A stretch of 64,000 nucleotides of DNA, taken from assembly GCA_903970445.1 (NCBI GenBank), contig CAJCIP010000108.1, forward strand, positions 1-64,000, in the 5' to 3' direction. Of this stretch, positions 41,539 to 58,290 are shown piece by piece (position 1 is the first letter of the stretch; every line of letters begins with the position of its first letter). The notes under the pieces were generated by a model. The model was given only the letters and a program-made list of their open reading frames with translations. It was not told the DNA's origin and did no database searches. Both the position numbers and the translations under genes were made by a program. The stretch comes from Verrucomicrobia bacterium Tous-C9LFEB. GTDB taxonomy: Bacteria > Acidobacteriota > Terriglobia > Terriglobales > Acidobacteriaceae.

Positions 41539-41581
41539 CGATGGGTTGGGGATGGACTGAGATATCAGCAAAGAAAGCATA

Positions 41582-41640
41582 CCTCAGGGGCTAAAGCCCT
41601 TTACGTTATGCATGCTTGGTGTCAGGGCTGAAGCCCTGAC
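41582..41640. repeat. Double-hairpin repeat, intergenic copy (family C)
   Basis: CCTCAGGGGCTAAAGCCCT is followed 20 bases later by GTCAGGGCTGAAGCCCTGAC, a perfect 8-base stem with a TGAA loop. The same pair of hairpins, with different but still complementary stems, lies in two places inside rimO. Confidence 0.75.
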
Positions 41641-41741
41641 CTATCCCAAGAGCAAGAGCAACCGCAAAGGCGAAGCAGATTTCTCCGCTGCGCTCCGGAA
41701 GGACACCAGAAAAGCGAGTGGCGCAATGAACAGTAGTCGTG

Positions 41742-43754
41742 CTACTCGATGATTTCGGCGACGACGTCGTAGTCGTGGGACTCGGTGATGCGGGCGCGGT
41801 AGAAGGTGCCGGGGACGAGGGTGTCGTGGGGGCCGAAGTCGTTGATGAGGACTTTGCCGTCGATCTCAGGGGCCTGGTCGAGGGTGCGGCCCTGCCAGAG
41901 GAGTTCGGTTTCTTCTGACTCGCCTTCGACGAGGACATCGACTTCGCGCCCGACCCATCCGGCTTTGGCTTTGCGGCTGATCTTGTTCTGGATGCGCATC
42001 AGCTTGCGGCGGCGGGCTTCGATGGTGCGCCTGGGGACTTTCTCGCCGTAGTCGAAGGCCTTTGCGCCTTCTTCGTCGGAATAAGAAAAGACGCCGAGCC
42101 AATCAAGCTGTGCTCGCTTCACGAACTCTACGAGTTCGTTGAAGTCCTCATCACTCTCGCCGGGGAAGCCGACGATGAAGCTTGTGCGGAGCACGAGGCC
42201 GGGGACGGTTTTGCGGGCTTTGTCGATGATTTGCATGAAGCGGTCGGCGGTGCCGCCGCGCTTCATGCGGCGGAGTACGCTTGCGCTGGCATGTTGCAGT
42301 GGGACGTCGAGGTAGTTGGCGATGTTGTCGTGCTTGGCAATGGTCTCAAGCAGGCGCGTGGTGACTTTGTTGGGGTAGGCGTAGAGGAAGCGCAGCCACT
42401 TGAGGCCGGGAAGTGGGGCGAGGGCGTTGAGGAGGTCGGCGAGTTCGGGGCGGCGGAGGTGTTGGCCCTCAGGGGCTGAAGCCCCTTTTCCTTCCTCAGA
42501 CTCTATGGCTGGGCTGAAGCCCAGCCCCTTCAAAGCTTGGCTTTCGTTTGGGTCCGTTGACGGGGAGGCATCGCGAAATACGGGGGTCTGTCCACGCGCT
42601 TCGCTTGGTCGAGATGACAACGGTTTGGGTGTGAAAAGAATGTTCGGTTCGAGGTCTTCGCCGTAGCAGGTGGTGTCCTGGCCGATGAGGGTAATTTCGC
42701 GGATGCCCTGGGCGATGAGCGATTTGGCCTCGGCGACGATGCTGCTGATGGGTCGCGAGCGGAACTTGCCGCGCAGCTGCGGGATGATGCAGAACGCACA
42801 GGGGTGGTCGCAGCCTTCGGCGATTTTGATGTAGGCGGATGCGCGCGGGGTGGTGAGGATGCGTGGTGTGTCGTCGGAGTAGAGGTAGCTGGGGAGGGTG
42901 GCATGTGCGCCATCCCAGGTCTCGCGGGAGAAGCGGCCAGCGGCTTCGCGGGCGTCGCCTTCTGGACGGGACGACTGTGCGGTGCCCTCAGGGGCTAAAG
43001 CCCCTTTACTGTTAGCAGCGTTGATGGACGGGCTAAAGCCCGTCCCCTTCAAAGCGTGGTTGTCCTTGGAGCCTGTTGGCTGGGAGGGATCGCCAAATAC
43101 GGGGGTCCTTCGACTGCGCGGCTCCGCCGCTTCGCTCAGGATGACGGCTGAAATATCAGGTCGAGATGACAGGTTCTCTTGTGTGGCGTGTTCGTGATGG
43201 AGCTGTGCGCCTCTGGAGTCGGGACGTGAGTGTTGGTTGACGGAGCTTGGAGCGCGGCGGATTTGCTCGCCTGATTCGATGGATGCGACCTGTGTGGCGG
43301 TGAGGACGTTGAAGGGTGACTCGGGCAGCGCGGCGGGAGCGGGGCGGGTCAGGCCGGCGGCTTCGAGTATGGCTTCGAGTTCGCCGGTGCCGACGACGGC
43401 GTCGACTTCCGGGATGTTCTTGCGGATTTCGTCGCGGTAGCGTTCTACGAGGCAGCCCGCGACGATGAGGCGCCGGGCGCGGCCTCCGTTGCCGATTTTG
43501 TGCTGCACCATTTCAAGAATGGTGTCGACGGATTCCTGTTTGGCCGAGTCGATGAAAGAGCAGGTGTTGACGACGAGAACGTCGGCGTCTTCCGCCCTTG
43601 GTGTGAGTTCCGCGCCTCCGCGATGCAGCAGGCCCATCATGACCTCGGAGTCAACGAGGTTTTTGGGGCAGCCAAGCGAGACGAATCCGACTTTGGGCCG
43701 GGTGCGTTCTTCTGCTGGTGGGGCTGGCATTTCGAGGGTAGCGGAGGACGTCAC
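41742..43754 (-). CDS. rimO: Ribosomal protein S12 methylthiotransferase RimO, enlarged by in-frame repeats
   Basis: This radical-SAM enzyme adds a methylthio group to Asp of ribosomal protein S12. The N-terminal domain has Cys29 (FVSLGCPKNLVDSE), Cys65 and Cys101. The radical-SAM cysteines are Cys315, 319 and 322 (IAEGCDHPCAFC), and the TRAM domain is at the end. It is 670 residues against about 430-480 for the family. The excess lies between the N-domain and the SAM domain (about 160-270) and within the SAM domain (about 369-433). The core of each excess, residues 195-257 and 379-430, is the translation of a copy of one repeat that is found between genes elsewhere. All catalytic cysteines are kept, so the enzyme may still work. 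Confidence 0.9.
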   Translation of the reverse strand: MTSSATLEMPAPPAEERTRPKVGFVSLGCPKNLVDSEVMMGLLHRGGAELTPRAEDADVLVVNTCSFIDSAKQESVDTILEMVQHKIGNGGRARRLIVAGCLVERYRDEIRKNIPEVDAVVGTGELEAILEAAGLTRPAPAALPESPFNVLTATQVASIESGEQIRRAPSSVNQHSRPDSRGAQLHHEHATQENLSSRPDISAVILSEAAEPRSRRTPVFGDPSQPTGSKDNHALKGTGFSPSINAANSKGALAPEGTAQSSRPEGDAREAAGRFSRETWDGAHATLPSYLYSDDTPRILTTPRASAYIKIAEGCDHPCAFCIIPQLRGKFRSRPISSIVAEAKSLIAQGIREITLIGQDTTCYGEDLEPNILFTPKPLSSRPSEARGQTPVFRDASPSTDPNESQALKGLGFSPAIESEEGKGASAPEGQHLRRPELADLLNALAPLPGLKWLRFLYAYPNKVTTRLLETIAKHDNIANYLDVPLQHASASVLRRMKRGGTADRFMQIIDKARKTVPGLVLRTSFIVGFPGESDEDFNELVEFVKRAQLDWLGVFSYSDEEGAKAFDYGEKVPRRTIEARRRKLMRIQNKISRKAKAGWVGREVDVLVEGESEETELLWQGRTLDQAPEIDGKVLINDFGPHDTLVPGTFYRARITESHDYDVVAEIIE
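42466..42619. repeat. Composite double-hairpin repeat inside rimO, copy 2 (family C)
   Basis: 154 bases with hairpins GGGGCTGAAGCCCC and GGCTGGGCTGAAGCCCAGCC, then AAATACGGGGGTC and an end GAGATGACA. It is read in frame, minus strand, as RimO residues about 379-430. Confidence 0.85.
42985..43171. repeat. Composite double-hairpin repeat inside rimO, copy 1 (family C)
   Basis: 187 bases with hairpins GGGGCTAAAGCCCC and GGACGGGCTAAAGCCCGTCC, then AAATACGGGGGTCC, a GC-rich palindrome and the ending GAGATGACA. It is read in frame, minus strand, as RimO residues about 195-257. Confidence 0.85.
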
Positions 43755-44865: not shown

Positions 44866-44987
44866 GTGGTTAGTTGACTTGCTCGTGCCTTCGGCACTCG
44901 CTTTGCAAATACGGGGGTCCTTCGACTACGCGGCTGAAGCCGCTTCGCTCAGGATGACAGCTTCAATTCGTTCGGTCGAGATGACAG
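44866..44987. repeat. Interspersed repeat, GATGACA-ended family (family B)
   Basis: AGTGGCGAGTGGTTAGT, then CAAATACGGGGGTCC, an inverted GC-rich part (CGGCTGAAGCCG) and CAGGATGACA followed by GAGATGACA. The first half is shared with 49929-50019. It lies between the cytochrome and molybdoenzyme genes. Confidence 0.7.
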
Positions 44988-49928: not shown

Positions 49929-50019
49929 CGAGTGGTTAGTAGAGGGCTCGCGCTTGCGATCGCGCTCGCGAATACAGGGGTCTCTCCACTTCGCGCTGCG
50001 CGCTTCGGTCGAGATGACA
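49929..50019. repeat. Interspersed repeat, GATGACA-ended family (family B)
   Basis: AGTGGTTAGTAGAGGGCTCGCG..., then CGAATACAGGGGTC, CGCGCTGCGCGC and GAGATGACA. The order is the same as at 44866-44987. It lies between fabH and the SRP RNA. Confidence 0.65.
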
Positions 50020-50249: not shown

Positions 50250-50305
50250 GACGAGAATCCTCGCGGTCCTTAGACTGCGCGCTTCGCGCTCCGCTCAGGA
50301 TGACA
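50250..50305. repeat. Interspersed repeat, GATGACA-ended family (family B)
   Basis: TCGCGGTCCTTAGACTGCGC, an inverted part GCGCTTCGCGC, then CTCAGGATGACA. A partial copy between the SRP RNA and the DedA-like gene. Confidence 0.55.
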
Positions 50306-58118: not shown

Positions 58119-58139
58119 CTCGGGTCAGCTTGAGATTTG

Positions 58140-58171
58140 AAGGGGCCGCTTTCGAGCGGCCTTTTTCTTTA
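58140..58171 (+). terminator. Rho-independent terminator after the DUF427 gene
   Basis: GGCCGCT and AGCGGCC pair around a TTCG tetraloop, followed by TTTTTCTTT. This is a textbook terminator. Confidence 0.88.
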
Positions 58172-58290
58172 TTGAAAGTGGAGCGACGGCAGGGCGTGTG
58201 GCCGAAACCGGAAAGCATGTCCTTCGCCTATGGCTCAGGATGACAGGATGATTGCGTCAGCTGCAGATGCATTGGTTTAGACTGGCCTCC

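Follow-up and report, generated by a model that had tools for sequence, protein, structure and literature searches.

We analyzed a 64,000-nucleotide stretch of contig CAJCIP010000108.1 from the genome of Verrucomicrobia bacterium Tous-C9LFEB (hereafter the window), a soil acidobacterium close to Granulicella, in which the gene for the S12 methylthiotransferase RimO (positions 41742-43754, minus strand) carries two in-frame blocks of palindromic repeats within enlarged linkers. The 670-aa open reading frame matched the NCBIfam equivalog TIGR01125 with 491.8 bits against a cut-off of 356.95, and the cysteines C29, C65, C101, C315, C319, and C322 of the two cluster sites were invariant among 32 RimO sequences. 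An earlier note on this DNA, made from the letters alone, had described a long RimO with two in-frame repeat blocks and all catalytic cysteines kept; the open frame, the family match, the alignment of the blocks, and the covariance-model matches given below bear this description out. Linker 1 of the protein has 90 aa compared to 19 in the short forms of the genus, and linker 2 has 70 aa compared to 12 (6 in two genomes). The inserted repeats account for about 113 of the extra residues, and the remainder of linker 1 is largely common to the genus.

Each insert consists of a short palindrome, E1, followed on the minus strand by a spacer and a double hairpin, E2. With covariance models R2 (for E1) and R1 (for E2), whose building sequences included the four rimO copies themselves, E1 of insert A in linker 1 was located at 43104-43145 (70 bits, E = 4.9e-15) and E2 at 42983-43056 (88 bits, E = 5.5e-20), the latter being read in frame as the peptide HALKGTGFSPSINAANSKGALAPEGT. 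The spacer between them, at 43057-43103, is mostly similar to that of insert B. In linker 2, insert B begins with a short form of E1 of the GTCATCTCGACC subtype at 42585-42618 (37.6 bits, E = 3.9e-07) and continues to E2 at 42464-42537 (85.9 bits, E = 1.8e-19), with the in-frame peptide QALKGLGFSPAIESEEGKGASAPEGQ. The two inserts aligned without gaps over 130 nt at 76% identity. The E1 tail (17/20 identical), a 37-nt stretch of the spacer (26/37), and E2 (56/73) each showed a similarity that none of 5000 shuffles reached.

The blocks are thus alike, as the earlier note had reported, but its reading of them as two copies of one repeat of 154 and 187 bases was rejected. When the host's own genome was searched with insert A, the matches covered either the E1 part or the E2 part, and insert B was the only one to cross the spacer. 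Each rimO insert is therefore a composite of two dispersed repeat families. In all five linkers where both models matched (both rimO inserts at locus L031, and L187, L217, and L242), E1 lay upstream of E2 in the same orientation. The metG and lysS genes likewise have E1 and then E2, but with a spacing that differs from the rimO inserts. This order may reflect a preference of E2 for landing behind E1, or a composite that moves as such.

E2 is a sharply bounded double hairpin of about 72-75 bases, and its two hairpins have conserved loops in the 12 own-genome copies that were folded, including the two from rimO. In these copies 94.6% of the alignment cells at paired positions were paired, and three pairs were changed on both sides. 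The covariation score of 0.225 exceeded the shuffled mean of 0.112 (0/500 shuffles as high) and the scores of slid versions of the structure (at most 0.077). Two of the five measures, the pairs with double changes and the further pair types, failed to beat the shuffles (76/500 and 171/500, respectively). The stems quoted in the earlier note were correct, and pairing is conserved, as the note had supposed, with compensatory changes maintaining it. Over 76 copies, comprising 61 of 63 sampled matches in relatives and 15 from the own genome (its 17 best without the pair that flanks a transposase), the ends were sharp, GCTTTGAAGGGG ... TGAGGGAA, and beyond them only a mild C bias was observed, which gives E2 the appearance of a unit with fixed ends. 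These consensus ends lack the GTAG/CGTC tag at the hairpin foot.

E1 is an imperfect palindrome of about 42 bases that occurs in two subtypes, GTCATCCTGAGC...GTCGAAGGACC and GTCATCTCGACC...GTGGAGAGACC, with compensatory differences between them. In an alignment of 15 of the 19 pattern matches, 99.3% of the cells were paired and five pairs were changed on both sides, under a structure drawn by hand from the same sequences. The covariation score and the share of paired cells beat 500/500 shuffles, but the pairs and pair types did not (46/500 and 61/500). E1 starts with GTCATC and the preceding base is variable, so that it has no GTAG/CGTC tag either.

Both families are widely dispersed. The own genome contains 119 matches to E1 (R2, E ≤ 0.01) and 58 to E2 (R1, E ≤ 0.1; this model was built from 12 own-genome sequences, nine of them in genes). 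E2 was further detected in 24 of 28 genus genomes (E ≤ 0.01) and, across the family, in 94 of 120 genomes and 68 of 79 genera (E ≤ 1e-6). A genome search for further in-gene copies, suggested in the earlier note, located ten of the 17 top-scoring E2 copies of the own genome in recognizable genes: in sense orientation in rimO (two copies), metG (two copies), proA, glmS, lysS, and an ABC transporter gene, and in antisense orientation in ispE and at the start of a xerC-like gene, where the element may be upstream of the true start. The other seven comprise two that flank a transposase and five without an identified conserved gene (two of these five have frames, of 162 and 100 aa, that lay outside the scan).

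In relatives, 63 E2 matches at 60 loci were sampled among the best-scoring matches listed for four genomes (G005, G011, G012, and G013), and 36 open frames of at least 170 aa were scanned, ten against NCBIfam (1e-20) and the others against Pfam (1e-5). Domain matches spanned or bracketed the element in 12 of the 63 cases. The genes were alaS, mnmG, moeA, metG, and ligD in G005; hemC, murD, and asparaginase in G011; and lysS and the genes for a beta-lactamase-fold protein, a GH57 protein, and a polyA-polymerase-like protein in G012 (for mnmG and the polyA-polymerase-like gene a second domain stretch was counted, its position not being printed). In one genome the hemC element separates the two domains of porphobilinogen deaminase, and a second genome has it at roughly the same position (L364 and L400).

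E2 is free of stop codons in two sense frames and on the antisense strand, and three frames are used in genes. The commonest gives ALKGxGFSP...GALAPEG and recurs in several proteins; the second sense frame (GLQPV...) is used in the ABC transporter and asparaginase genes; and the antisense strand is read in ispE, mnmG, murD, and others. Because the three frames yield unrelated peptides in unrelated proteins, it is DNA, and not a peptide, that spreads.

The alignment with relatives proposed in the earlier note was performed with linkers delimited by fixed anchors, E1 and E2 being called on the DNA by the covariance models at E ≤ 0.01; the own genome was positive at each site. For rimO, which could be scored in 25 of 28 genomes (it is split over contigs in G007, and G020 and G021 have no full gene), E1 or E2 was present in linker 1 of three genomes and in linker 2 of three. 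The glmS linker was occupied in 4 of 23 genomes (25 matched; G008 and G027 partial) and the proA linker in 1 of 25 (26 matched; G018 partial). Occupation was most frequent in the metG segment after KMSKS (9 of 24 genomes; a 25th locus, in G027, lacked the anchors) and in the lysS linker (6 of the 13 scored among 26 loci, the rest being without anchors in one frame within the locus). The rimO blocks are thus lacking in most of the relatives scored, and the earlier note's contrary case, the same blocks at the same place in all of them, was not observed.

All E1 and E2 copies in the scored linkers were in sense orientation. The insert-free forms were short and alike among themselves; nine genomes, for example, had a metG segment of 27 aa, and in eleven rimO linker 2 measured 12 aa. 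In rimO linker 2, glmS, metG, and lysS, the same linker held E1 in one species and E2 in another; that two repeat families occupy the same linkers time and again is the point that we consider worth stressing. The RimO tree places G003 and G004 as sisters, yet their glmS genes differ: one has a full E2, and in the other the two ends of E2 enclose a gap of 48 bases (by hand count) that keeps the frame (loci L165 and L158), a loss of the hairpins with the ends retained.

Linkers were also examined at 55 of 80 named RimO loci, where peptides read by eye in more distant relatives included LKGTGFSP...GALAPE in linker 1 of an Acidobacteriaceae genome (L306) and an E1-like VILSEAKDP in RimO of a Terriglobus genome (L290). 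A third repeat-like peptide, GAPSSPTASSSAKVG and its kin, was seen in the same linkers of glmS (L159, L160, L164, and L170), rimO (L036 and L039), and lysS (L233). Its DNA in glmS of two genomes is GGTGCCCCATCTTC...GGCTAAGGTGGG, and this element, E3, looks like another in-frame repeat family. Five genomes (L192, L194, L197, L209, and L210) have a second-frame E2 variant (GLQP or GLQA ... ALAPG) in metG after KMSKS, which may date from one insertion older than the split of these species or may represent several gains.

The rimO linker-2 elements of the own genome and of G013 seem to have arisen separately. In a tree of the RimO core, the own lineage (G000) is deep, and G013, which also has an E2 in linker 2, falls in a separate group together with G009 (support 94/92, under the starred level). 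G009 has a short linker 2, and the G013 element, though it occupies the site of insert B, is closer to insert A than to any other copy in the comparison. Shared ancestry of the two linker-2 elements was thus not favored, and separate gains in G000 and G013 are the favored reading of these sequences; a single origin is less probable on the tree, which needs two changes, though 14% of the bootstrap trees need one. The exact insertion junctions cannot be fixed because the relatives are too distant (RimO segments are 70-85% identical). An AlphaFold2 model of RimO from 32 sequences, weak overall (mean pLDDT 60), gave values below 50 at residues 141-303, with few breaks, and 360-433, the regions that contain the inserts, and 65-90 over most of the rest.

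A candidate enzyme for E2 was found in the Y1 transposase family PF01797, which has eight matches in the own genome. One of these genes, on contig C29 (protein of 157 aa), sits between an inverted pair of E2 elements of the same type as those in rimO. Its five next-best homologues share 54-60% identity. Those in G002, G005, G012, and G013 have inverted E2 of the C29 type on both sides, some with base changes in the end, and a fifth, in G008, has a degenerate flank only; a partial homologous gene in G004 likewise lies between E2 of the C29 type. The more distant transposases have other types of flank, that of C73 being the GATAGGTC type, around which low-complexity GGACAAGGGCAAG-like repeats were noticed beside the C73 transposase (L064:1-360). 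Homologues of the C29 transposase occur in 16 of the 21 genus genomes with at least 10 E2 matches and in none of the seven with 0-2. A HUH/tyrosine transposase with inverted repeats at its flanks, and a terminal inverted repeat (TIR) that is also a dispersed family, are features of the TIRtron/TIRYT elements, and both are found here. From this arrangement E2 appears to be the TIR of a small transposase of the RAYT (REP-associated tyrosine transposase)/TIRYT kind, where REP stands for repetitive extragenic palindromic sequence.

We conclude, with a probability of roughly 85%, that the rimO blocks are non-autonomous, transposase-linked mobile palindromes which persist where the frame is kept in tolerant linkers. 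The earlier note's suggestion that palindromes spread inside coding genes in the manner of the Rickettsia palindromic elements (RPE) agrees with the data, as the repeats are dispersed, in frame in unrelated housekeeping genes, and absent in most relatives scored. The transposase would recognize folded single-stranded E2 and then copy or move it, probably copying it as single-stranded DNA, as the flanking pairs and the known biology of TnpA-REP/RAYT proteins suggest. A landing inside a gene that does not break the frame would add about 25 residues. Comparison of the relatives suggests that most genic landings would be lost, and that in-frame copies in tolerant linkers would stay, decay, and sometimes be trimmed. 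Such sites would include the two RimO linkers, MetG after KMSKS, the LysS linker between the OB fold and the catalytic domain, and the GlmS and ProA linkers. Since selection would retain copies only there, the same linkers would collect elements repeatedly across species. Transposition is the presumed route, and the inserts are presumably neutral and the long proteins made and working.

Several observations weigh against this conclusion. Insertion is judged from comparisons between genomes that are not very close strain pairs. None of the 38 transposase loci has a transposase flanked by a pair of E1 elements, and the sole E1 among them lies on one side of a match on C58, about 350 bases off; no partner enzyme for E1 was found among them. 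The co-occurrence of transposase and E2 is weaker than its Fisher p-value of 0.0007, because a single clade holds six of the seven E2-poor genomes, which are not independent. No C29 homologue was detected at E ≤ 1e-15 in 5 of the 21 E2-rich genomes (two of them less than 75% complete). Most of the sequences behind R1 are in-gene copies, and the genic share among the top E2 matches, in the own genome and in the relatives, may therefore be inflated. Linkers can also lengthen without E1 or E2, since rimO linker 2 of G014-G019 is long (34-43 aa) and has no detectable copy of either. Low model confidence is not special to the inserts, because residues 1-16 and 314-330, the latter with the radical-SAM cysteines, also have pLDDT below 50 in a model that is weak overall.

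The alternative that survives best, though we consider it unlikely, is that the palindromes reached the linkers via recombination, template switching, or gene conversion between repeats, and that the linkers tolerate any in-frame DNA. The E1-E2 spacer common to inserts A and B (26/37) and the lack of any other place in the genome matching insert A across both parts fit copying within the gene; E1 without an enzyme partner and the other sequence in the G014-G019 linkers point the same way. For most E2 copies, however, a dedicated enzyme is indicated by ends that are fixed over 76 copies with differing flanks and by the match between E2 type and transposase type. A regulatory role of the hairpins in host mRNA or DNA (pausing, mRNA stability, or gyrase sites), selected in the host genes, is less probable still. 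Stems kept by compensatory changes and the uniform sense orientation in the scored linkers would suit it, but recognition by a transposase explains the pairing equally well, antisense copies are found in ispE, mnmG, murD, and other genes, and most scored genomes have no E1 or E2 at a given site, lysS coming closest to half.

That RimO and other enzymes carry the blocks as an ancient functional module of the protein is very improbable. The recurrence of the ALKGxGFSP...GALAPEG peptide in several proteins and the metG elements that appear common to several lineages would be expected of a module. It was nevertheless rejected, as one and the same DNA, depending on the frame, gives unrelated peptides in unrelated host proteins; the core tree with the short linkers of relatives, and the low pLDDT at the blocks, also argue against it. 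An assembly artefact, which the earlier note had named as a way to be wrong, or pseudogenes can be practically dismissed: although the genome is a draft of 133 contigs in which metG, lysS, and glmS run off contig ends, the rimO frame is long and open with all its cysteines, and the single-contig genome G011 also has in-gene copies (hemC, murD, and asparaginase). On own contigs C115, C132, C88, C29, and C61, several E1 and E2 copies are no more than a few hundred bases from a contig end, and the repeats may therefore break assembly.

Elsewhere in the window, a double hairpin occupies the intergenic positions 41579-41652 on the minus strand (R1, 50.5 bits). The earlier note had counted it as another copy of the hairpin part of the rimO repeat; it is related, but its 5' end is GATAGGTC, and it was assigned to a different subfamily, of the flank type beside the C73 transposase. 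Three strong E1 copies lie outside rimO, all on the minus strand, at 44916-44958 (64.8 bits), 49979-50018 (53.9 bits), and 50265-50304 (49.0 bits). Weak matches to E2 (plus strand) and E1 (minus strand) in close proximity at 58133-58244 are possibly decayed copies.

With 58 E2 and 119 E1 matches, the genome shows the many short palindromes typical of REPs and REPINs; E2 departs from their placement between genes, as ten of the 17 top copies in the own genome are genic. The earlier note had offered Rickettsia as precedent, and the likeness to RPEs holds, but the precedent is broader, because REPs inside genes have been described well beyond Rickettsia. Di Nocera et al. (2013, PMC3733652) report them from several species, with Opitutus terrae and Rickettsia conorii having the most. 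That survey places intragenic GTAG/CGTC REPs and REP dimers in genes of tRNA synthetases, repair functions, and further core proteins, mentions flexible linkers or loops, and describes different REPs at about the same site in recB of two Xanthomonas species (PMC3733652). E2 resembles the GTAG/CGTC REPs, as far as they are portrayed there, in being palindromic and in lying in flexible linkers of core-protein genes. It differs in being tagless, in serving as a transposase TIR, in its acidobacterial host, and in the reuse of several linkers by two repeat families across the genus and the high genic share among the best copies.

The RPEs are in-frame palindromic insertions in unrelated core genes, as E1 and E2 are here; the likeness drawn is one of position. 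Unlike the RPE case, the candidate mobilizing enzyme here bears the same repeat, E2, at its ends. RPEs are themselves cited in the REP survey (PMC3733652). That source also describes TIRYT, tyrosine transposase genes with inverted repeat flanks, some of which form dispersed families, and names G. mallensis gma794 and Koribacter ORF1552 as members of an acidobacterial TIRYT group (PMC3733652); in a second account, TIRYT is linked to subclass 2.1 (PMC6006769). A C-terminal helix-turn-helix is a feature of that subclass. The C29 transposase between inverted E2 elements, with E2 dispersed, corresponds to the TIRYT arrangement, C29 being likened by its flanks. The GGGGWSAS motif, common to some but not all of the TIRs published in the former source, is only partly matched in E2, which mostly has GGGGAC and then G. 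In contrast to E2, TIR repeats are not placed inside genes in those parts of the TIRtron accounts that we could consult (PMC3733652, PMC6006769).

REPINs are short non-autonomous hairpin units linked to RAYT genes and formed by inverted REP doublets in extragenic space, for which deletion events are reported (Bertels and Rainey 2011, PMC3116915). E2 is likewise short, non-autonomous, and transposase-linked, and the in-frame loss of hairpins in glmS of G004 resembles the REPIN deletions and excision; unlike REPINs as described there, E2 is a pair of different hairpins and often genic. Granulicella aggregans appears in a RepRanger table (PMC12306157). In the literature searched, with subscription journals mostly outside it, no title, abstract opening, or consulted passage described palindromes inside Acidobacteriota genes, and the earlier note had known of none.

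Taken further, and only tentatively, transposase-linked palindromes in Acidobacteriaceae might be dwellers of coding DNA, with ends and frames suited to survival in genes, that re-enter the same inter-domain linkers of essential enzymes and continually supply core enzymes with new linker peptides peculiar to a lineage. An odd linker in an acidobacterial enzyme may be mobile DNA rather than a domain. What is new here relative to the known systems is the host group (as far as the literature searches show), a TIR-type repeat without the tag, the high genic share, and the reuse of linkers by different families. REPs are usually described as intergenic, whereas here most genic copies of one family keep the frame of a core enzyme, relatives without the inserts exist, and a candidate enzyme is available. 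Two old questions, the movement of REPs and the way in which proteins gain inserted segments, thereby become testable.

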